From: a virus
Length of the DNA stretch: 32,874 nt
Virus record (IMG/VR): IMGVR_UViG_3300009091_000041
Span: 1-32,874 of that record
Strand: one strand, 5' to 3'
Shown piece by piece: positions 2,812 through 29,936 of this stretch; positions within the stretch are counted from its first letter, which is position 1; each line of letters starts with the position of its first letter. The notes beneath the pieces are model-generated. The model was not told where the DNA came from and searched no databases. It saw only the letters and a program-made list of their open reading frames with translations. The translations under genes and the position numbers were made by a program.

Positions 2812-3720
2812 TTACAATGCAGACTTATCAGCCTCTTTTTTCTTTCCCTTATCATCTGTTTTCTTCTTTCCGGTAAGAGTGCGAATTTGCTTCGCCATTT
2901 CATTACACTTATTTTGCCATTCATCACGGCTCTTGGTAAGCGTAATGACTTGAGCCTGAAGCTGCTTTATTTCCTCGACTCCACCGTCCTCTGCTACCGA
3001 TGCATATGCCTTCAGTTGCAAGGCAATGGAGTCATAGTTGCTGGCAAGTTCGTTGTACTGATCTTCCATCCGAGTGAACTCAGACAACGGAACAGTTTCC
3101 TCTTTTTCCTTCTTTGGCTTAGAAGGCTTATCTGCTTTCGCTGGTTTTTTACCGCTCTTTTTTGCTTCAACGGCTTCATTCTGTTCTTGAGCTGGCATTT
3201 TAGATAATCTTGCCGCTTCTTTAACAGACATAGTGCCATCAACAACAGCTGCCTGTACTGCTGGCTCCGCCTTGGTTGCTTCTTTGGCTGAATCAATTGT
3301 ACTTACACCAACACCGGCCAATCCAGCTGCCTCTTCTCGCGTTAATCCTTTGCTAGTAGAGAATTTATTTGCCGCATCCAAGCTTTTACTTGCTGGCCTA
3401 CCAGCCCCATCCTGCCACTCAACCAGCTTGGCAACAGAGAATGCGCGCTGGCTCTTGTCCATGTGACGACGATGGAAGTTCTTAGATAGCACATAGGCTA
3501 TCGGATCATCACCTTCAAACTCAAGAATTGGTGGCTTCTTTACATTCAATTCCAAGCACGCAGAATACCTGTGCCATCCATCAAGAATCATGCCTTCGAA
3601 TACAACGATTTTTTCACGCACACCGTTCTCATCAATGTCGCTCTTCAGCTCTGCAAAAGCCTCTGGTGACATGGGTGGGAATGCGCTGCTCAATGGATGC
3701 CTTTGGAATGTTTTGCTCAT
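2812..3720 (-). CDS. ParB-like N-terminal domain protein
   Basis: A 302-residue protein with a ParB/Srx-type N-terminal domain (about 5-95): the ENGVREKIVV strand and the LDGWHRYSAC segment (46-55) match the nucleotide-binding core, and KNFHRRHMDKSQRA (80-93) is the usual phage-type arginine box region. A helix-turn-helix-like segment covers about 125-150 (TREEAAGLAGVGVSTI), as in ParB DNA-binding domains. The C-terminal part is lysine-rich (about 188-215), then a predicted coiled coil (about 218-290). Family members serve in partitioning, transcription control or as nucleases; which applies here is unknown. AAGGAG lies 6 bases before the ATG. A copy of the dispersed CTAG palindrome sits inside the gene (codons 119-125), at the linker before the helix-turn-helix. 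Confidence 0.75.
   Translation of the reverse strand: MSKTFQRHPLSSAFPPMSPEAFAELKSDIDENGVREKIVVFEGMILDGWHRYSACLELNVKKPPILEFEGDDPIAYVLSKNFHRRHMDKSQRAFSVAKLVEWQDGAGRPASKSLDAANKFSTSKGLTREEAAGLAGVGVSTIDSAKEATKAEPAVQAAVVDGTMSVKEAARLSKMPAQEQNEAVEAKKSGKKPAKADKPSKPKKEKEETVPLSEFTRMEDQYNELASNYDSIALQLKAYASVAEDGGVEEIKQLQAQVITLTKSRDEWQNKCNEMAKQIRTLTGKKKTDDKGKKKEADKSAL
3345..3364. repeat. CTAG palindrome, copy 2, inside the ParB-like gene
   Basis: The palindrome is embedded in codons 119-125 of the ParB-like gene. One arm has a C in place of the consensus T. The plus strand reads CCTTTGCTAGTAGAG, matching copies 1 and 3. It encodes part of a polar linker (KFSTSKG) between the N-terminal domain and the helix-turn-helix region, a place that could tolerate an imposed DNA site. 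Confidence 0.7.
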
Positions 3721-3756
3721 GCTTATCTCCTTAGTTAATTAAAATTACTACGTTTA

Positions 3757-3915
3757 CTACCCTTCGCAGGGTTGTTTTGAACGCCTTATTGAAGGCTCAT
3801 TTTTTAATAAGACCATGCCACATTTAGAGCAATATACCCAATGGCATACTTTTCTCGTGAAGCTATGGCGAAAATTATTAGGGTCTGGATGCTTTGATTT
3901 AATCACACCCTGCAT
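3757..3915 (-). CDS. Small zinc-ribbon protein
   Basis: A 52-residue protein with a CxH/CxxC cluster: C24, H25, C29, C32 in VCHWVYCSKCGMV, then LLKNE and a final C50. The pattern of a first Cys/His, CxxCG, a LKNE-like turn and a distal Cys is common in very small phage zinc proteins of unknown function. It starts at the ATG at 3915 with a poor ribosome site (TAGG about 9 bases upstream); the frame upstream is closed by a TAA with no other start. It fills what otherwise looks like a gap between the ParB-like gene and the 4017 gene. The residue pattern makes a chance reading frame unlikely. Confidence 0.7.
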   Translation of the reverse strand: MQGVIKSKHPDPNNFRHSFTRKVCHWVYCSKCGMVLLKNEPSIRRSKQPCEG

Positions 3916-4016
3916 ATTGCGCCTATTCTCATTCTTATTGATGAAACATAATTATCTGGCTGGTGTGTACCTACGCGGTCAGATTCTTCATCAAGAATTT
4001 TTTGATCCCTAAGATT

Positions 4017-4343
4017 TTATTCTTTGAATTCCGGGTATAAGCGCCATACTACTGTGCTGCCACAAGGCCACATTGACTGAACATGCTTGATCATCTCTGC
4101 TGCAAGTTTTCTGCATACATTTATATCGTCCAGACGGCCTTCGTATTCGAACTGTAGCGTTACATGGTTAACTCTACCTTGACCACCACCGTCTAGATCA
4201 AATAGCTCGAACGCACTACTAGAACGAACAGGATAAACGACATATTGCTCGCTGACTTTTCTCTCTATAAGTTGAATTAATGCCATTCTAAAGAGAGCTG
4301 GGTTTGGTTCTCTTTTACTAAACTCTTGGATAATGATTTTCAT
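4017..4343 (-). CDS. Unknown early protein
   Basis: A 108-residue protein I do not recognise. It is mixed alpha/beta in character, soluble, with no signal peptide or membrane segment. A glycine-rich turn DLDGGGQG lies near residue 50, and a strand VTLQFEYEG follows. It has a good ribosome site (GGAG about 8 bases before the ATG) and its start overlaps the stop of the Cro-like gene by four bases, so it is the second gene of the leftward operon. Its place next to the regulator suggests an early role, but nothing in the sequence defines it. Confidence 0.7.
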   Translation of the reverse strand: MKIIIQEFSKREPNPALFRMALIQLIERKVSEQYVVYPVRSSSAFELFDLDGGGQGRVNHVTLQFEYEGRLDDINVCRKLAAEMIKHVQSMWPCGSTVVWRLYPEFKE

Positions 4344-4609
4344 TTATTTCTCCTGTTTTTTTGTTTAACTTCAAAGTCCAATTCTGGCCATACTTGACGC
4401 CAAACATCCGGGAACAATCGTTTGCGACTCCACTTGCCTTCAGTGGCCACCTCAAGCGGATATGCCAGCAAGAACAACTTTCCAGCAGGTATATTCTTGA
4501 CTCGCTTCCAGTCGCTTACAGACTGCCAAGCTGAACCGCACAAGTCTGCCGTTTTCTTTGTTCCACCAAGAAGACCAATTATTTCTGCTGCTGAAATTTC
4601 ATCACTCAT
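4340..4609 (-). CDS. Cro/YdaS-like helix-turn-helix regulator
   Basis: An 89-residue small DNA-binding protein. Residues about 8-50 match the Cro/YdaS-type fold, where a conserved GGTKKTADLCG.. helix is followed by SVSDWKRVKNIP, the recognition helix and turn. The C-terminal tail is basic. The ATG at 4609 is chosen because GGAAG lies seven bases upstream; an upstream TTG would add four residues but destroy that spacing. The gene is the first of the leftward operon and lies 30 bases from a perfect 22-bp operator (4639-4660), so it probably represses its own promoter. The same operator at two later promoters suggests a wider role. No paired CI-like gene is seen. Confidence 0.75.
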   Translation of the reverse strand: MSDEISAAEIIGLLGGTKKTADLCGSAWQSVSDWKRVKNIPAGKLFLLAYPLEVATEGKWSRKRLFPDVWRQVWPELDFEVKQKNRRNK

Positions 4610-4632
4610 AATTACTTCCAATCAAATTGTGT

Positions 4633-4660
4633 TTGCATATTATACGGATTTCCGTATAAT
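4633..4660 (+). promoter_or_regulatory. Operator-promoter O1 (bidirectional)
   Basis: A rightward sigma70 promoter has -35 TTGCAT (4633-4638), a 16-base spacer and -10 TATAAT (4655-4660). A perfect 22-bp palindrome (4639-4660; arms ATTATACGGA and TCCGTATAAT around TT) fills the spacer and includes the -10. Because the palindrome begins with ATTATA, a minus-strand -10 TATAAT lies at 4644-4639, with GTTGCT (4666-4661) as its -35 and also a 16-base spacer. It therefore fires both ways, leftward to the Cro-like gene. A dimer bound here would block both promoters. Confidence 0.8.
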
Positions 4661-8480: not shown

Positions 8481-8508
8481 TTGCACATTGTACGGAAATC
8501 CGTATAAT
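8481..8508 (+). promoter_or_regulatory. Operator-promoter O2
   Basis: -35 TTGCAC (8481-8486), 16-base spacer, -10 TATAAT (8503-8508). The 22-bp palindrome (8487-8508) matches O1 with the central TT replaced by AA and one arm mismatch (G at 8490). It is followed by AAGGAGAT and the gene at 8538. The layout is the same as O1 and O3. Confidence 0.85.
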
Positions 8509-8537: not shown

Positions 8538-8861
8538 ATGCCAAAGCTCAACGAAAAGTTCAACGAAAAGTATCACGAAGAAGAATTTCATCCTTATGCA
8601 CGTGAATCAGTAACTCACAGGCGTATTCGTGATGGCCACCTTGAATTTGTCAATACTTTACGTTTTAACTGCCAAGACACATTCTCCGATCTAACCGATG
8701 CTGAATTGATCGAATATAGCGATCTGTGTGCCAAGGCTGATTTCACTGGATTAGCTGAAGATAAAATTGCCGCCTTTGATTACATCAATAACATCAATAA
8801 AAGATACTGGAAAGAAATTGAGCGTGTTACGCGTGAAGAAAGAGCTGGGCACGTTTTTTAA
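8538..8861 (+). CDS. Unknown early protein under O2
   Basis: A 107-residue charged protein of unknown family. It is rich in Glu, Asp and Lys with a basic segment around residues 22-33 and is probably all-helical. It is the first gene after the O2 promoter and has an AAGGAG site 8 bases before the ATG, so it should be made abundantly when the promoter is open. Its stop codon overlaps a copy of the CTAG palindrome, which suggests the transcript is punctuated there. Confidence 0.75.
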   Translation: MPKLNEKFNEKYHEEEFHPYARESVTHRRIRDGHLEFVNTLRFNCQDTFSDLTDAELIEYSDLCAKADFTGLAEDKIAAFDYINNINKRYWKEIERVTREERAGHVF

Positions 8862-8880
8862 TTCTTTGCTAGTAGATAAT
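8861..8880. repeat. CTAG palindrome, copy 3
   Basis: Begins at the last base of the TAA stop of the 8538 gene. Flanking T and A runs (8855-8860 and 8881-8885) extend the dyad beyond 30 bases with one internal mismatch. It sits just before the small reading frame at 8885. Confidence 0.75.
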
Positions 8881-8884
8881 TAAA

Positions 8885-11780: not shown

Positions 11781-12398
11781 ATGGCAAAAATGAAAAAACG
11801 CAGCGTGACTAAAAACAATATTACTTTTACCGATTTTGAAGGAGTAATGGAGCGATACAGAAAGCCAAGTTCAAAGCAAAAAGAAGATGTGCAGGAGCCG
11901 CATGAGAAACACAATATCTCCGGGAAGTCATTCGCTCCGCTCGATGACTTAGGCCCAAAATGCGAGCTTATCGCCTGCGATAGGAAATACAAGGGAATTC
12001 ATCTTTTGCGTGTGCGCGCTCTTCGAGACTTTGGCGATGTGAAGGCTGGCGATGTTGGTGGATGCGTTCAGGATAGGCGCAACATATCGCAAAATGGTGA
12101 TTGCTGGCTTTCCTATGACTGTGTGATTATTGGTAGAGGAAGGCTTCAGGCCAACGCCAGAATGAGGGGTCGGGCAGTCATTAAAGATAATGCATTCTTG
12201 GGGGCAAATGCATACATGCAGGACAATACTGTTTTATGCGGAAATGCAATAGTCACAGGGACTACCGAACTACTAAACAATGTAATTGTTGGTGGAAACA
12301 TCAAGCTTGGCCATGACATGATATTCAGGAGCCGCGACGAGCTTACTGAGTATCTTGATAGTTGCGGAAGGGAGTCTAGATCATGCAAGCCACTTTAG
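11781..12398 (+). CDS. Left-handed beta-helix protein
   Basis: A 205-residue protein. The first 60 residues are polar and perhaps disordered. From about 70 to 185 it shows short hydrophobic repeats with Gly/Asn turns (CVIIGRGRLQANARMRGRAVI, AFLGANAYMQDNTVLCGNAIV), about six residues apart, typical of hexapeptide left-handed beta-helices such as YdcK-like proteins. Such proteins in phages have no known role; they form trimers and may bind polymers or cap an assembly. The ATG has GAAGGA upstream. The gene is embedded in the early operon. Confidence 0.7.
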   Translation: MAKMKKRSVTKNNITFTDFEGVMERYRKPSSKQKEDVQEPHEKHNISGKSFAPLDDLGPKCELIACDRKYKGIHLLRVRALRDFGDVKAGDVGGCVQDRRNISQNGDCWLSYDCVIIGRGRLQANARMRGRAVIKDNAFLGANAYMQDNTVLCGNAIVTGTTELLNNVIVGGNIKLGHDMIFRSRDELTEYLDSCGRESRSCKPL

Positions 12399-12610
12399 AG
12401 CGCGACCATGTTGCAGACGAAAAGAAACGCCATCGGTGCGAGGTGCGCTGGCTCATACGAGAGCGCCTAGTACGCGGCAAGGACTGGCTAAAAACCTACT
12501 TAAACAGTAAAAATGTCGCTTCACGCAAAGCTGCACTAGAGATGGATATAAAGGCTCAGTGGAGACTCGGGAATCGTGGCGAAACAGGAGAATGGTATGT
12601 CGAACATTGA
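12383..12610 (+). CDS. Small phage protein (Arg/Trp-rich)
   Basis: A 75-residue basic protein. It begins within the end of the beta-helix gene (16-base overlap) with GGGAG before the ATG, and its end overlaps the next gene. The layout CEVRWLIRERLVRGKDWLKTYL, then a C-terminal GNRGETGEWY, recurs in small phage proteins of unknown function. Two amphipathic helices are likely. Nucleic-acid binding is possible given its positive charge, but not shown. Confidence 0.7.
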   Translation: MQATLERDHVADEKKRHRCEVRWLIRERLVRGKDWLKTYLNSKNVASRKAALEMDIKAQWRLGNRGETGEWYVEH

Positions 12611-12926
12611 TCCAAACGAAGCAATAAATTTCATACTAAAAAATGCAAAGTTGTACGCCAAGGCCAGAAGCGAGAGGGTGTATCTTGAAGAATTCAGGAA
12701 GTCATTAAAAGCCAAGCTATTCAATGAATCCGATAGAAAGACGATGGATGAGCGATCAAACTACGCCTATGCTCATGAAGACTACATAACCAACTTGAAC
12801 GGCATCAAGGCTGCTATTGAGGTCGAAGAAACTCTTAAATGGCAGCTGATAGCGGCTCAAGCACGTGTTGATATATGGCGATCAATGGAGGCGTCCAATA
12901 GATTCGTTGATAAAAATACACAATAA
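12597..12926 (+). CDS. Small helical phage protein
   Basis: A 109-residue protein. The ATG at 12597 follows AGGAG with good spacing; an in-frame GTG at 12576 lacks one. It is almost fully helical and charged. A block ARSERVYLEEFRKSLKAKLF followed by AIEVEETLKWQLIAAQARVDIWRS has the look of a widespread phage protein family of unknown role, often next to genes like the one at 12383. It is the last gene before the O3 promoter. Confidence 0.7.
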   Translation: MSNIDPNEAINFILKNAKLYAKARSERVYLEEFRKSLKAKLFNESDRKTMDERSNYAYAHEDYITNLNGIKAAIEVEETLKWQLIAAQARVDIWRSMEASNRFVDKNTQ

Positions 12927-12931
12927 ATAAG

Positions 12932-12959
12932 TTGCGCATTGTACGGAAATCCGTATAAT
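12932..12959 (+). promoter_or_regulatory. Operator-promoter O3
   Basis: -35 TTGCGC (12932-12937), 16-base spacer, -10 TATAAT (12954-12959). The palindrome (12938-12959) is identical to O2. It drives the gene at 12996 and those after it. Confidence 0.85.
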
Positions 12960-12995
12960 TATATCTGCAACATCTGGCAACTTAATTAACTCAAT

Positions 12996-13796
12996 ATGGA
13001 TGCATGTATGTTATTAGCTAAATTTTTCCCTGTTGCAGCATTGTATTTTAAGTCAAAGCAAGAAAACCCAAATCAAGTATGGCAATGGTCATTTGACCGT
13101 CCTGTTGAAGACCAAAAATGGAGCGACATTCCTCCTGAAAGAGAGATGGATAATCTATTCAGGGATGGGTACATTTATCGCATGAAACCCAAGGAGCTAC
13201 CACATGCAGAGCTTCGCAAGAAATGGGAAGAGGATGAAAAAAACGCTCCAAGATGGAAGGTAAGATCAAAAGGGAAGAACGCTCAATGGAAAATGTTTGA
13301 GGTTGGCGAACGTCCCGGATGGTTCGAGCATAGTGAATACGAAAGAATTGCTCCTCAATCAGAGATTGACGCCGCAATCGAGATAAAAACCATTTCTGAA
13401 AAGTTCGCAAAAACAGAGCACACGATCAAATCTCTGCGTGACTCAATTAGCGATCTTCAGCGCGTTATAAGAGATCAAAAGCAGAGCATAGAAGATTACG
13501 AAAAGAGGATTGCATATCTGCGCGGCCTACTAAGCAAAAAAGCTGACTTGGATATTGAAAAAGCGGTGCGTGAAGCCATTGAAAGTGGTTTTGGAAGTTT
13601 TCACGCTCCCGGGTTGACTGCTGTATTTTCAGAGGTCGCTACTGCCGGGGCTGACATTACCAATAAGGATGGGAAAACACTATTCAAAAGTCGTGATTTT
13701 TTCGATTGCGTATCGAAGGCGGCACAGAATAATGATACTGGCACTATGATTTCTCTTCTTGCAGGTCTTGCAAGAACACTCAATAAACCAAAGTGA
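12996..13796 (+). CDS. Unknown coiled-coil protein
   Basis: A 266-residue protein of unknown family. Residues about 20-115 are rich in Trp, Lys and Glu; two WF/W-centred segments (VWQWSFDRP and GERPGWFEHSEY) look like repeated small modules. Residues about 130-180 form a coiled coil (heptads around SEKFAKTEHTIKSLRDSI). The C-terminal 80 residues are mixed. It is the first gene under O3, but no good ribosome site precedes the ATG, so a later start such as the ATG at 13008 cannot be excluded. The stop overlaps the next start. Confidence 0.65.
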   Translation: MDACMLLAKFFPVAALYFKSKQENPNQVWQWSFDRPVEDQKWSDIPPEREMDNLFRDGYIYRMKPKELPHAELRKKWEEDEKNAPRWKVRSKGKNAQWKMFEVGERPGWFEHSEYERIAPQSEIDAAIEIKTISEKFAKTEHTIKSLRDSISDLQRVIRDQKQSIEDYEKRIAYLRGLLSKKADLDIEKAVREAIESGFGSFHAPGLTAVFSEVATAGADITNKDGKTLFKSRDFFDCVSKAAQNNDTGTMISLLAGLARTLNKPK

Positions 13797-14119
13797 GCAG
13801 AAAACCAACTCAAAAAGATATAGTCTTTCGCAGTGAGCAACTGCGAAGGGCTGTAGCAAGTCTAGAATGCATGCATTGCGGTCTGGAAGGCTCCACACAG
13901 GCTTCGCATAGCAATCAGTCTAGGGATGGTAGGGGAATCGGCCATAAGACATCTGACGCGTTCCTAGCTGCTCTGTGCTTCAAGTGTCATCACGAGGTAG
14001 ACTACAGTCACACTCTTAACAGGGAAGAGAAGTTGGATGTGTGGGAGAATGCCTACAGGAGGACAATACGTGCTCTTCTGGAGCGCGGATTACTGATCGT
14101 GGATAGATCAAAAATATAA
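13793..14119 (+). CDS. DUF1364-like HNH-type protein
   Basis: A 108-residue protein starting at a GTG that overlaps the previous stop. The pattern CMHCG (about 27-31), then QASHSNQSRDGRGIGHKTSD, then LCFKCHHEVD matches DUF1364-type phage proteins, which are related to HNH nucleases and bind zinc through the four cysteines. The catalytic histidine could be that of ASHSN. It is probably an endonuclease acting in recombination or packaging; the sequence does not say which. It is co-transcribed from O3. Confidence 0.7.
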   Translation: MSRKPTQKDIVFRSEQLRRAVASLECMHCGLEGSTQASHSNQSRDGRGIGHKTSDAFLAALCFKCHHEVDYSHTLNREEKLDVWENAYRRTIRALLERGLLIVDRSKI

Positions 14120-14128
14120 GGAGGTGTC

Positions 14129-14455
14129 ATGGCCAGAAAGCGCAGTTTCATAAAGAGAAAGGCAGCAATCATCGCTGTTGTTGGGGTTGCGTTGTTATTG
14201 CTTGCTATCGCATCTGGCGCATACACTTTTTTTGTTCAGAGAGGTGATGGACAATATGCAGACCAAGGCGCTGGCCATTACAACACAATAATCCCTCAGA
14301 ATAGCGAGTTGCGTAACAGCGTACAGCAGCAGACTGGTTGCAATGGAGGATTTTCTCCCAATCCGTGCATTCATTCAATCCCTGAACCGGGAACATGGGT
14401 ACTGTTCTTGGCGGGGCTTGTAATAATAATTTTAATCATAAGGAGTAGGAAATGA
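14129..14455 (+). CDS. PEP-CTERM-type surface protein
   Basis: A 108-residue membrane-directed protein. Residues 1-11 are strongly basic, followed by a hydrophobic segment (12-35) that acts as signal or anchor. The short middle part has two cysteines (C71, C80), possibly a disulphide. The C-terminus is a textbook PEP-CTERM sorting signal: PEPGTW (85-90), a hydrophobic segment (90-104) and the basic tail RSRK. In bacteria this signal is handled by an exosortase after Sec export. AAGGAGGT precedes the ATG and the stop overlaps the methyltransferase start. The gene may have come from a host, or it may use host exosortase to place a small protein at the cell surface. Confidence 0.75.
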   Translation: MARKRSFIKRKAAIIAVVGVALLLLAIASGAYTFFVQRGDGQYADQGAGHYNTIIPQNSELRNSVQQQTGCNGGFSPNPCIHSIPEPGTWVLFLAGLVIIILIIRSRK

Positions 14456-15216
14456 ACATAGCTCAAAATGTACTTGAGGTATTAAGCAGCGCAACAGTCA
14501 AGGGCAATAAAGTCATCCTGACCGGAGAACTCGACAGAAACTTATATGTCGCAACAAACAAGGTTCTTGAGGCGGCTGGCGGTAGCTGGAGCCGCAAAGA
14601 CAAGGCGCACGTATTCGAATCTAATCCTGAGAAAATAATCGACGAAATTATTCTTACTGGAAGCATCGACATCCCAAAAGATGACTTTGACTTTTTCCCA
14701 ACTCCAAAGAAGATTGTTGATAAGCTCATATATATTGCAGCACTGAAGGATGGCGACATTGTCCTAGAGCCAGAAGCTGGTCGTGGTGCAATTGCGTTTG
14801 AGTGCCTGAAGGCCGCAAAAGACATTCAGGTTGACTGCTTTGAAATATCACCTGAGAGCTGCGAGTATCTGCGAGAGCATGCAGTATCACGTGTTATATG
14901 TGGCGACTTCCTGTTGATGCAACCAGTGGAAACACATAAGTATGACGCAGTAATAATGAATCCGCCGTTCAGTAATAAGGCTGATATAAAGCACGTTATG
15001 CACGCAACAAACTTCCTGAAGCCATCCGGGATATTGGTCGCCGTCATGTCTTCTGGCGTGACATTCAGGCAAGACAAGATTACAACTGCATTCAGGCAAT
15101 ATGTAACCGATAGCGGAGGATTCTTTGAGCCATTACCTGAAGGTTCATTCAAGGAGTCAGGAACTATGGCAAATACTGTAATTGCTGTTATTTACGGTGC
15201 AGACGCACTAAATTAA
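14452..15216 (+). CDS. DNA methyltransferase, probably N6-adenine type
   Basis: A 254-residue class I SAM-dependent methyltransferase. SAM-binding motif I is LEPEAGRGAIA (105-115), with the acidic motif II residue E131 in FEIS and GDF (151-153). The catalytic motif IV is NPPF (170-173), characteristic of N6-adenine or glutamine-type amino methylation. FFPTP (81-85) is common just before the fold in phage enzymes of this group. Residues 1-75 may be a DNA-contact region. No restriction partner is nearby, so it is an orphan enzyme, perhaps for evading host restriction. It is the last gene of the rightward block, directly before a terminator. Confidence 0.8.
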   Translation: MNIAQNVLEVLSSATVKGNKVILTGELDRNLYVATNKVLEAAGGSWSRKDKAHVFESNPEKIIDEIILTGSIDIPKDDFDFFPTPKKIVDKLIYIAALKDGDIVLEPEAGRGAIAFECLKAAKDIQVDCFEISPESCEYLREHAVSRVICGDFLLMQPVETHKYDAVIMNPPFSNKADIKHVMHATNFLKPSGILVAVMSSGVTFRQDKITTAFRQYVTDSGGFFEPLPEGSFKESGTMANTVIAVIYGADALN

Positions 15217-15234
15217 TCTTCATCAAGAAACAAG

Positions 15235-15260
15235 AAAGCCGAGAAATTCTCGGCTTTTTT
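15235..15260 (+). terminator. Intrinsic terminator between convergent blocks
   Basis: AAAGCCGAGAA and its complement form a stem (15235-15245 with 15247-15257), which continues into a run of six T (15255-15260). It is the strongest hairpin seen in the window and lies 19 bases after the methyltransferase stop. A-runs on the other side could let it act on leftward transcripts as well. Confidence 0.9.
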
Positions 15261-15280
15261 ATTCTCTGCTAGTAAAGAAT
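15261..15280. repeat. CTAG palindrome, copy 4
   Basis: Follows the terminator T-run without a gap and its last base is the first base of the complement of the TAA stop of the leftward transglycosylase gene. It marks the meeting point of the two convergent transcription units. Confidence 0.75.
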
Positions 15281-16545
15281 TATTTCTGATCTTCTGGATT
15301 GTCTCTGAAGTAATCTACAGCGCCAGCCCCGGCTTCAAGCAATGCCCCTCCGATACGCGTAGGAACAGTTGGTATCATCGCCATGACCCCTCCGATTCCT
15401 TGCAGAGCACTAATGACAGCTCCACTTCTGTCTCCCGCCTTATACCGCTCTATGGCGTCATAGATACCCATGCCAGCGCCAGCACCAGCAAGACCTTGCA
15501 CAGGAACCTTCCCGACGATATGGCTAAGTCTAGACGCCATTGGTATCTTGTCTGTTTTTGCTGCCCTTGCAAGCTCGAACTCTTTTAATTTTAATTCATG
15601 TTGCGCTTTCGCTATGCGGTCTGACTTGGCCTTAGCTTCTGCCTTTGCTGCATTTTCAGCATTTAACCGATCCATTTCTTCAGCTGGTATGGCAATGCCA
15701 GAAGGTGTTGCCCCTTGGATTCTTCTACCTTGAAATTCACTAACTGGTTGTTGCCCACGTATCGCCCTAGCCTCATCGCCCGTAGCTCTATTGTATACGG
15801 CCTGCCTTTGTCTTCCGGTAGTGCCTTCTTCCCCCGTTGTTCCTTGCTGAGAGCGCTCGTATGGAGTCCTGTGCAATGCATCTTTTATTTTCTCCATTTC
15901 CTCCCTAACCTGAGCGGCCCGGCCACTTGTTTGACCAACTGGAGGATTATTTAATCCAAGCTTACTTGCTCCATACCCAACCGCTGCGCCAGCTCCTAAG
16001 CCGTACATACCTGCTTGTGCGCGATCCGCAACCCACCCGGGACGTGGCTGCTCCATTGGCTCCGGTAATGGCCGCTCTGTTGCCTCTGGCTCCATGAGAT
16101 TAGGGGCAATATAATTACCTCCAAACCCTCCGTACTGCCTTACTTTATCGACATAATCCTCTGTTTCATCTGACGTTGCATTGCCCTTTGATTGAGCTGT
16201 AGGCCCGGCATTGTATGCGCGTGCAACTGCCTCTGGATCATTGCCAAATCTATCACCGAGTATTCGCATATACACGACACCAAGCTCCGCGTTTTGCTCT
16301 GGATCACTAGGGTCTAGCCTAACGCCTGTCTGGTTGTATACCTCATCAGCTGCAATTTGCCTTACCTGCATAACTCCAGAAGCCCCTTTGGTATTTGTTC
16401 CGGGGTCAATAAGTCTGCTTTCTGCAAATGCCTGAGCAATGGCCTGTTGTGGAGGTACGCCGTGCTTTACGGCAGCGCGATATACTTTCCTTGCGTTTTC
16501 TCGCTGTTCGCTTGTCAGTTTGGTAAAGTCAATCTTATTGGACAT
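15280..16545 (-). CDS. Virion-associated lytic transglycosylase
   Basis: A 421-residue protein. The N-terminal SLT domain (about 10-135) has the catalytic glutamate E42 in AESRLIDP, then GASGVMQV and the ARAYNAGP motif (about 108-115). This enzyme cleaves peptidoglycan and in virions helps DNA cross the cell wall. The long middle is polar and Glu/Arg-rich; the C-terminal 70 residues are hydrophobic with glycine (AGAGAGMG.., GIGGVMAMIP), as in internal virion proteins that insert into membranes. The ATG at 16545 is chosen for GAGGAG eight bases upstream. It overlaps the preceding gene by eleven bases and is the last gene of the late unit. Confidence 0.8.
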   Translation of the reverse strand: MSNKIDFTKLTSEQRENARKVYRAAVKHGVPPQQAIAQAFAESRLIDPGTNTKGASGVMQVRQIAADEVYNQTGVRLDPSDPEQNAELGVVYMRILGDRFGNDPEAVARAYNAGPTAQSKGNATSDETEDYVDKVRQYGGFGGNYIAPNLMEPEATERPLPEPMEQPRPGWVADRAQAGMYGLGAGAAVGYGASKLGLNNPPVGQTSGRAAQVREEMEKIKDALHRTPYERSQQGTTGEEGTTGRQRQAVYNRATGDEARAIRGQQPVSEFQGRRIQGATPSGIAIPAEEMDRLNAENAAKAEAKAKSDRIAKAQHELKLKEFELARAAKTDKIPMASRLSHIVGKVPVQGLAGAGAGMGIYDAIERYKAGDRSGAVISALQGIGGVMAMIPTVPTRIGGALLEAGAGAVDYFRDNPEDQK

Positions 16546-19976: not shown

Positions 19977-19993
19977 GGCTTTTCCTTTTCTTT

Positions 19994-20013
19994 ATTCTCT
20001 ACCAGTAGAGAAT
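19994..20013. repeat. CTAG-family palindrome, copy 5
   Basis: The most regular copy: two perfect 9-base arms (ATTCTCTAC and GTAGAGAAT) around CA. It lies 7 bases after the stop of the HNH gene and about 17 bases before the start of the next gene. The centre is CCAG here rather than CTAG. Confidence 0.75.
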
Positions 20014-20020
20014 TTATTTC

Positions 20021-24668: not shown

Positions 24669-26687
24669 TTAAATCTTATACGCAAAAGTAGCCCTTAAAA
24701 CAAATGAATTCCTCATTACCGCACTGCTGCCTGTCATGGAAGCTGCGGCAGCAGCAAGAGTTGCGAATGTTATTGACGATCCACTCGCGGCAACAACACA
24801 CCCCATAACCGTTGTAACAATATTAGAATTTAAGAAATATCCAGCACAAAATGATATTTCAGTAGCGCTATTATTCGCAAACGGCAACCCTGATATTGTT
24901 GTTGTGCTTCCTGTTCCTATTAAATTTATTTCAAAAGATAGCTCTATTATTACCGTATCGCCAATTTTTGTATATTTACCAGTCTGTGTTGTATATGTGG
25001 CAGTTCCACCTACGCTTGGCGTCCATGTTCCTTCCTCATAGTCATCAAGCGTATTGGCATTGGCGATAGCATTCTGCACAGCCGGGAATTGAATTCCAGC
25101 TGTAGGCAATATCGTCGCCCCACCAACATTGCCAGTAGCCGTGAATGATCCTGGAGCTGTGATTGCTCCAGAAGTTGCTATACGCATTGCTTCAGCATTA
25201 TTTGTATAAAATACTAACGGCAAGTACGTCCCAGCCCCGGATATATCAGAAGCTATCCTTGCCTCTGTCGCGCCAACCGCAGATAGAGCAAGCCTAGAGC
25301 TAGTCGTTGGGTCGGCAGTGGAATAAATATGCAATGCTGAAGCTGTTCCTGTTCCGCTAGGCACTATGCCGACTGCTGTTGTCGAGTTTGCTGTTGAAGT
25401 TTGGAATGCCGCCCTATTTGCTAATGTTGCATTTGTAAAGTCAGCAATTATCCTGCGTGCCGCACCCGATATAGTTATCCCGCCGACAACGGTGAGCATT
25501 GCCGCCGATACTTCGATAACCTGCACACCAAGAACAGCTATATCAAACTTCCCGGCCCCGGCCCTATATACCCCTGTTGTTGCTTCAGTGCCGAAATACA
25601 AAGAAGGATTGGTAACGGTTCCGTCTGTCAATGATGATACGGATGACCCGGCAACAATAGTGTTGGCATTGACAATATTAACCGAGTCATTCATCACGGT
25701 AGATTGCTGTCCTGCTGTTATTTGTGCGGTCGATCCGCCCAGCCCGGTGGATATAGTTATCGTGTATCCAGCCGGGCTTGTAGTTGCATTCTGGACGTAA
25801 TAAACCTGAAGTGTAGGCGGGACTATGATCGTTACATTACCAGCCAAATCCCCAGTGCTCACAAACTTCAGCATTGTGTTAGACGCCTCAGAGGGCGTCA
25901 GCGTATAAGTGCCAGTAGATACCGTCTTCAGCAATTGTGAAAAATTGAACTGGGTATTTTTGCCAAGACCTATGGAGTAAAAGGCCGTTCCAGAACACCC
26001 AATGAAGCATGAGTCATCAGGTTGCATACCTATAGAACCTGATCCATTGAGCAAGTCTATCCCGGCGCAATCAACAGTTAGAAGACCTGTACCGCCATTC
26101 CTGAGATTAATAAACCAGTTGTCTCCAAGTGTTGATGCTGCTAATAATGATAGCGTACCAGCTCCACCAGTCCATACAAGCAGCTTTGCCCTGTCACTGT
26201 CTGCAACCGTATAATCAGCGTTGAATGTAGTGACTGGCAACGATTGGTTCAATTTTGTTGCAACAGCCTCCAACCCTTCCCCGGCAAGACTAGCGGCATC
26301 AGCACTCGATGTGCCAGTGCCGAATGCGAATGAACCCCATGTCCCAGTGACGGATGAGTTATCAGTAAGATAAACATACTTCGCCTCACCAGAAGCGATT
26401 GATATTACTGTGCCTGCACCGCCGTAGTCCTTGACCGTGAAAGTATTGGCTCCTGTGTTTCTGATCAATACATCCTCACCAACAGAGGCTTGATTAGCTG
26501 GCGGAAGGTATAGAAAAAGACCAGCTGAAGACGCTGAAACCTCAGTAATCCTTCCGATTGCCGTAAGGTCTGGATCACCATTTATCGGCCATTGTAATTG
26601 CGTATTGGCAGCAAGAGCGATGGTCGCAAGGGAAACGTCAGCAGGATTAACAACGCTACCTGAAAATCTGGATATAAAGCTTGTCAT
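24669..26687 (-). CDS. Tail fibre protein 2
   Basis: A 672-residue beta-rich, Thr/Ser/Gly/Ala-rich protein with few charges, typical of a trimeric fibre. N-terminal 1-60 may attach to the tail. Residues about 402-511 match a region of the other fibre (29937-32141). The C-terminal part TLDDYEEGTWTPSVGG (547-562) followed by YTTQTGKYTKIGDTVIIE is a phage-fibre end domain common in many phages. The start overlaps the GIY-YIG gene stop (ATGA). It should bind the host surface. Confidence 0.75.
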   Translation of the reverse strand: MTSFISRFSGSVVNPADVSLATIALAANTQLQWPINGDPDLTAIGRITEVSASSAGLFLYLPPANQASVGEDVLIRNTGANTFTVKDYGGAGTVISIASGEAKYVYLTDNSSVTGTWGSFAFGTGTSSADAASLAGEGLEAVATKLNQSLPVTTFNADYTVADSDRAKLLVWTGGAGTLSLLAASTLGDNWFINLRNGGTGLLTVDCAGIDLLNGSGSIGMQPDDSCFIGCSGTAFYSIGLGKNTQFNFSQLLKTVSTGTYTLTPSEASNTMLKFVSTGDLAGNVTIIVPPTLQVYYVQNATTSPAGYTITISTGLGGSTAQITAGQQSTVMNDSVNIVNANTIVAGSSVSSLTDGTVTNPSLYFGTEATTGVYRAGAGKFDIAVLGVQVIEVSAAMLTVVGGITISGAARRIIADFTNATLANRAAFQTSTANSTTAVGIVPSGTGTASALHIYSTADPTTSSRLALSAVGATEARIASDISGAGTYLPLVFYTNNAEAMRIATSGAITAPGSFTATGNVGGATILPTAGIQFPAVQNAIANANTLDDYEEGTWTPSVGGTATYTTQTGKYTKIGDTVIIELSFEINLIGTGSTTTISGLPFANNSATEISFCAGYFLNSNIVTTVMGCVVAASGSSITFATLAAAAASMTGSSAVMRNSFVLRATFAYKI

Positions 26688-27301
26688 TTTTGCTTTTCCT
26701 TTTCGGAAATCATCTTTGCTTTTCTAATAACATGAGCTGCCGTCATTTTTGCTCTTGCTTCATCTGTGTGTCTCCATCCATTCTTGCCCATCTTTACTGC
26801 CGACATCTTTGCTTTTGTTTCAGGTGAGTGACCGCCATTAGATTTCCCTATTTTTGACGCAGACATTTTCGCCTTTGATTCTTCTGTATGTCTCCATCCG
26901 ATACGATTACCAGTATTTGATTTTCTATTTTTTTCTTTTGATGCATCAGTATGCTTCTTGCCGCGCATTCCAAAATTTCTTGTATTTCTTTCTTCTGGAG
27001 TCCATGGCCTGCCAATACCACCCTCTCCTCCTCTGGCAATGTTATATCCGTGAGGAGACTTTGTATTGTGTTCAGCGATTAATAGGCGCTCTACGCTACA
27101 AGCAGATTCTCTATCATAAGAGTTTGCAATAACAGTTAATACGAAACTTCCTATGCCATATTTATGTATGGCAGCATGAAGAGCTGGGCACCCACCATCT
27201 GCCTTTATGTGCTCTCTCCATCTCTTGCTTATATTATTAGTCATGCCAATATATTGCTTTGCGTTAACTTTATTAGTAATAATATAAATTGTATATATCA
27301 T
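26684..27301 (-). CDS. GIY-YIG homing endonuclease with NUMOD3 motifs
   Basis: A 205-residue SegE-like enzyme. The N-terminal GIY-YIG domain (about 2-90) shows TIY (4-6), YIG (17-19), R27 and H31 in SKRWREH, catalytic E71, and GYN (85-87). The C-terminal half carries about four NUMOD3-type repeats (GKKHTDASKEKN, GWRHTEESKAKM, GGHSPETKAKM, GWRHTDEARAKM), each a DNA-binding helix unit. The enzyme cuts a nearby site in related phages so as to copy itself. It is wedged between the adaptor and the second fibre, with a four-base overlap to the fibre. Confidence 0.9.
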   Translation of the reverse strand: MIYTIYIITNKVNAKQYIGMTNNISKRWREHIKADGGCPALHAAIHKYGIGSFVLTVIANSYDRESACSVERLLIAEHNTKSPHGYNIARGGEGGIGRPWTPEERNTRNFGMRGKKHTDASKEKNRKSNTGNRIGWRHTEESKAKMSASKIGKSNGGHSPETKAKMSAVKMGKNGWRHTDEARAKMTAAHVIRKAKMISEKEKQK

Positions 27302-29883: not shown

Positions 29884-29908
29884 TTTTTATTTATACGCCT
29901 ATAAATTA

Positions 29909-29928
29909 ATTCTCTACTAGCAAAGAAT
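29909..29928. repeat. CTAG palindrome, copy 6
   Basis: In the leader between the first tail fibre and the lysis cassette, 8 bases after the fibre stop. It is the reverse orientation of copies 1-3 (plus strand reads CTCTACTAGCAAAG). Flanking bases extend the dyad to 24. Confidence 0.75.
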
Positions 29929-29936
29929 TAAAAATA

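Follow-up and report, generated by a model that had tools for sequence, protein, structure and literature searches.

A short PEP-CTERM protein gene in an operator-headed gene block of a tailed phage

The gene block and its operators

The window, that is, the whole stretch of 32,874 nucleotides analysed here, is a virus record of IMG/VR (IMGVR_UViG_3300009091_000041) that codes for a terminase, for virion and tail proteins, and for lysis functions, and has conserved genes common to related phages. Scanning of the contig genes brought up neither a portal nor a major capsid gene, and the named relative nearest to it by terminase measures 57 kb, so that the contig is probably incomplete. The gene of interest lies on the plus strand at 14129..14455, begins with ATG and codes for a protein of 108 amino acids (MARKRSFIKRKAAIIAVVGVALLLLAIASGAYTFFVQRGDGQYADQGAGHYNTIIPQNSELRNSVQQQTGCNGGFSPNPCIHSIPEPGTWVLFLAGLVIIILIIRSRK), described here from the open reading frame and its translation, profile matches, hydropathy, and a structure model.

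The gene belongs to a block spanning 12996-15216, headed by the third copy of a promoter-operator (TTGCGCATTGTACGGAAATCCGTATAAT; 12932..12959, plus strand), a palindrome lying over a TATAAT-type promoter. The palindrome is found in three nearly identical copies (4633-4660, 8481-8508, and 12932-12959), with none expected by chance, and each copy lies upstream of a plus-strand gene block. The earlier placement of the gene under an operator-controlled block thus agrees with the position of the third copy. The block opens with a gene for a coiled-coil-like protein of 266 amino acids with no assigned function (12996..13796, plus strand), followed by one for an HNH endonuclease (13793..14119, plus strand; phrog_131; conserved to 64% in the related phage G001), whose start overlaps the upstream stop. 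Next comes the PEP-CTERM gene and then a DNA methyltransferase-like gene (14452..15216, plus strand). Relatives of this last gene and of the 266-residue protein were searched for and none were found. A likely candidate for the regulator of the block is the Cro/YdaS-like repressor gene located beside the first operator copy (4340..4621, minus strand), which matches PF15943 at 30.4 bits (cut-off 30) and phrog_35, a family of transcriptional repressors. A simple palindrome test found no similar operator repeats in the two nearest relatives, G001 and G002, and an Rfam scan of 12000-16000 gave no match.

Another near-palindromic repeat (consensus AATTCTCTACTAGTAGAGAATT) is present in six copies (217-243, 3340-3366, 8856-8882, 15256-15282, 19989-20015, and 29904-29930), against 0.01 expected by chance, mostly located within intervals that separate transcription units or next to them. 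It is distinct from the three promoter-operators and may be the site of a second regulator. Elsewhere in the window, a long tail-like open reading frame has beside it a GIY-YIG endonuclease-like one (26684-27301, minus strand), whose C-terminal part contains imperfect repeats of 60 bases.

The PEP-CTERM gene is preceded by a ribosome-binding site with its spacer (AAGGAGGTG; 14117..14128, plus strand), whose Shine-Dalgarno sequence matches at nine of nine positions and is the best among the 43 genes of the window, while its stop overlaps the start of the methyltransferase-like gene (ATGA). These two features and the position downstream of the third promoter-operator copy mark 14129-14455, at the sequence level, as a real gene in a phage operon. 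Its G+C content of 0.453 is normal for the phage and the same as that of its neighbours. Such a phage setting had been assumed in the preliminary description and is borne out by the ribosome-binding site, the G+C content, and the operon position. An origin as host DNA or a prophage edge was ruled out by the mid-contig position, G+C content, and gene overlap. Identity as a lysis gene was likewise ruled out, an endolysin-like gene and its neighbours occupying about 28.2-29.9 kb of the opposite strand.

The 108-residue protein and its C-terminal tail

The C-terminus of the protein (SIPEPGTWVLFLAGLVIIILIIRSRK) carries the complete tripartite tail of PEP-CTERM proteins, exactly as first described from the open reading frame: PEPGTW at residues 85-90, a hydrophobic helix (VLFLAGLVIIILII), and the basic RSRK at residues 105-108, the extreme C-terminus. 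The sorting domain (PEPGTWVLFLAGLVIIILIIRSRK; 14381..14452, plus strand) is recognised above the curated cut-offs by both PF07589 of Pfam (residues 83-108, 26.6 bits, cut-off 20.7) and TIGR02595 of NCBIfam (residues 84-106, 20.9 bits, cut-off 16), and the mean hydropathy of residues 90-104 is 3.29 (15-residue window). The tail is a genuine PEP-CTERM tag.

A second hydrophobic span, at residues 12-31 and preceded by six basic residues, is found near the N-terminus, where the hydrophobic stretch as a whole is about 25 residues long (helix at ca. 12-36). The top hydropathy windows are solely 12-32 and 86-106, with no further membrane helix between the N-terminal span and the PEP-CTERM domain, and the predicted periplasmic stretch of about 48 residues between the helices holds Cys71 and Cys80. 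In a single-sequence AlphaFold model, which has low confidence (mean pLDDT 63) and was consulted for the helices alone, residues 5-51 form one long helix, residues 59-67 a short one, and residues 87-107 a third. Possible signal-peptide cuts in the N-terminal span follow AIA or SGA. Given its length, the span may be an uncleaved anchor that would keep the product in the inner membrane, so the export to the cell surface put forward in the preliminary description is weakened.

The protein resembles the known substrates of the exosortase EpsH, recognised by PF07589/TIGR02595, in ending with the PEP motif followed by a hydrophobic helix and a basic cluster, as well as in its hydrophobic N-terminus and the lack of homology outside the domain (PMC1569441). 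It differs from them in being phage-encoded and very short and in lying on a contig sequence without an exosortase. The possibly uncleaved N-terminal helix would also set it apart from the ca. 97% of known PEP-CTERM members that have a cleavable signal peptide (PMC1569441).

In shuffled tails of the proteins encoded by the 43 genes of the window, the tail architecture arises 0.00025 times per genome. The specificity of PF07589 was assessed against the presence of exosortase (PF09721) in a control set of 40 Burkholderiales genomes, of which ten have an exosortase. The profile exceeded its cut-off in all ten, and was silent in 28 of the 30 genomes without a detected exosortase; the two exceptions (G178 and G280) have a PF07589 match, incomplete assemblies being a possible cause. 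A chance origin of the tail is unlikely, because the 28 silent genomes (ca. 76 Mb) gave no match, as against matches in ten of ten exosortase-positive ones. Among 40 terminase-related virus records, PF07589 passed its cut-off in the present contig alone; the related phage G020 scored weakly, at 14.6 bits and so under the cut-off, which was taken as chance.

Relatives, other phages and the host

No whole-protein homologue of the 108-residue protein was found in IMG/VR, INPHARED or GTDB contigs. Short tail queries run with tblastn against phages gave no match either, a weak negative, since the same tail query gave only weak matches against plasmids. The two nearest relatives share with the window, in the same order, genes named from sequence as primase, helicase, ERF, exonuclease, ssb, terminase (75%), and RuvC, and neither has a PF07589 match in its available sequence. 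The position of the gene was compared among relatives after the HNH gene or after the homologue of x12576, two genes upstream. In G001 (L317), which has neither a PEP-CTERM nor a methyltransferase gene, the HNH gene is followed by one for a basic single-helix protein of 47 amino acids and then by a convergent virion gene. In two other related phages (L318 and L319; HNH 65-66%) the HNH gene precedes a gene for an exported protein of 83-84 amino acids with conserved cysteines, and in three more (L070, L076, and L081) lipoproteins of 86-93 amino acids are encoded after the x12576 homologue. The slot is thus occupied in related phages by small envelope proteins of unrelated sequence, which suggests, from a few genomes, a fast-changing accessory position with the pattern typical of conflict genes.

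PEP-CTERM-like genes also occur elsewhere among phages. When IMG/VR was scanned for the PEPGTW pattern, 43 contigs came up, 18 of them with a PEP-CTERM-like C-terminus, and in a PEPATW scan 28 of the 80 fetched contigs, among the matches listed, had such an end. At least nine of these genes adjoin phage genes, namely those for portal proteins (L110 and L249), terminase (L121), RecT and replication initiation (L116), DNA polymerase (L088), DNA polymerase and primase (L239), a repressor (L090), Sak4 and SSB (L202), and head and tail (L199). Seven of the nine contigs were scanned with PF07589, and five (L110, L116, L121, L202, and L090) passed the Pfam cut-off; L239 and L088 gave no match despite the motif. 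The PEP-CTERM signal is therefore uncommon in phages but not unique to this one, and the class recurs. The rarity first claimed holds only in part, given the scan counts and the neighbouring phage genes.

Like these proteins, that of the window has a PEP-CTERM-like C-terminus and is encoded beside phage genes; unlike it, they are about 180-275 amino acids long and belong to different phage modules, with no sequence relation found. Contig L110 has two PEP-CTERM-type genes (994-1821 and 3573-4274), and the portal gene comes immediately after the second. The L239 gene (7616-8413, minus strand), located 3 bases upstream of the phage DNA polymerase gene, codes for 265 amino acids with an anchor-like N-terminal helix and an I/L-rich PEPATW tail, a layout resembling that of the window protein. 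TIGR03118 proteins with a putative domain for exosortase interaction have been described from Yellowstone viruses, as a family of unassigned function that has spread by horizontal transfer (PMC11003980). They are likened to the present protein by description only, as proteins of viral contigs with an exosortase-type C-terminal domain. No paper on phage-encoded PEP-CTERM proteins was found in a search outside which most subscription papers lay, and this is weak evidence of novelty.

No exosortase was found in the phage contig, and the virus probably borrows the sorting enzyme of its host. The nearest terminases in bacterial assemblies belong to Burkholderiales or Betaproteobacteria MAGs (50-55%). 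Among five Burkholderiales MAGs with a related terminase, one (G044) has an exosortase and also four PEP-CTERM matches. A DNA search of 399 Burkholderiales genomes for the host returned almost only ssb, at up to ca. 75% identity. A host call from these ssb matches was rejected as reflecting common ancestry, and genomes with the best ssb matches had an exosortase no more often than the others did.

Proposed role and alternatives

The reading that we favour, and hold to be rather probable, is that of an accessory gene expressed by a tailed phage, with a product that would serve the host PEP-CTERM/exosortase system as a substrate. It is favoured by both profile matches, the association of PF07589 with exosortase in the Burkholderiales control, the scarcity of such tails among shuffled ones, the leading Shine-Dalgarno sequence with the phage-like G+C content and ATGA overlap, the operator repeats with the adjoining Cro/YdaS-like gene, the variable slot, and the PEP-CTERM genes beside phage genes in other contigs. 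In the model that Haft et al. proposed, PEP-CTERM proteins pass through the inner membrane and expose the PEP motif at the periplasmic face, where exosortase (EpsH) acts (PMC1569441). By analogy, the 108-residue protein would insert with its N-terminus inside and with a short stretch in the periplasm that a disulphide between Cys71 and Cys80 probably closes, and the host exosortase would cut or transfer it at the PEP motif. If the N-terminal helix stayed uncut, the product would stay fixed in the inner membrane, a short tail extending into the periplasm, whereas a signal peptidase cut near residues 27-31 would leave a peptide of about 55 residues to be sorted outward. To our knowledge, the outcome of exosortase action (cut, transfer or anchor) is still poorly worked out.

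A plausible use, compatible with either membrane outcome, would be to alter the envelope of the infected cell against competing phages. Such superinfection exclusion, in line with the blocking of other phages offered as an example in the preliminary description, appears the most likely use because the occupant of the slot differs from one phage to the next, as is the case for arms-race genes. T4 Imm, P22 SieA, and HK97 gp15 are small membrane proteins by which phages exclude superinfection, and the present protein is likewise a small phage-encoded envelope protein with a (here predicted) periplasmic part; we know of no PEP-CTERM tail in any of the three. Searches of PHROGs and PADLOC gave no match of the 108-residue protein to an exclusion or phage protein family. 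Counted against the favoured explanation are the failure to find whole-protein homologues, the single record above the PF07589 cut-off among the 40 terminase-related ones, the lack of PEP-CTERM in the available sequence of the two nearest relatives, the exosortase in just one of the five Burkholderiales MAGs with a related terminase, and the presence of a single PEP-CTERM gene, in contrast to the several usual per host genome (PMC1569441).

The exosortase could also be irrelevant, the protein being a two-helix inner-membrane protein of exclusion or lysis control with PEPGTW as a relic or a chance motif. The long N-terminal hydrophobic span, the model with its two terminal helices, and the positional counterpart in G001, single-helix and without the motif, all fit such a protein, but the very low chance of the tail speaks against it, as does, for lysis control, the presence of the likely lysis genes elsewhere; we regard it as unlikely.

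Where the tag is taken to be used, the main rival is that the short protein acts as a decoy, occupying the host exosortase and blocking the sorting of host PEP-CTERM proteins and with it the exopolysaccharide-linked surface, so that the envelope would change by loss of host proteins and not by gain of a phage protein. Such a role would suit so short a protein, given its complete tail and strong ribosome-binding site, and in flocs PEP-CTERM proteins attach exopolysaccharide to the cells (PMC9850573). The PEP-CTERM genes of other phages, however, mostly code for larger secreted proteins (180-275 amino acids), with which a cargo fits better, and the decoy seems to us quite improbable. Very improbable is a recently captured, functionless fragment of a host PEP-CTERM gene or host DNA at a contig edge, which would agree with the absence of the gene from the nearest relatives and of homologues from phages, but not with its intact frame, leading ribosome-binding site, ATGA overlap, neighbour-like G+C content, and location inside a phage operon in mid-contig, and no bacterial homologue was found either.

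Returning to the gene as a source of an exosortase substrate, a broader view can be offered tentatively, as a possibility open to considerable doubt: phages of exosortase-bearing bacteria might repeatedly recruit the PEP-CTERM/exosortase system to place surface proteins during infection, or to block their placing, and the 108-residue protein would be a minimal, operator-controlled version at a position that lipoproteins or other exported proteins occupy in related phages. So far, work on exosortase sorting has treated it as a bacterial house system linked to exopolysaccharide, flocs, and biofilms; should its substrates also be encoded by phages, it becomes part of the phage-host conflict. Phage PEP-CTERM genes would then be markers for exosortase-bearing hosts, the tag being absent from 28 of the 30 Burkholderiales genomes without a detected exosortase, and proteins of the 108-residue type would provide small, testable substrates for exosortase.
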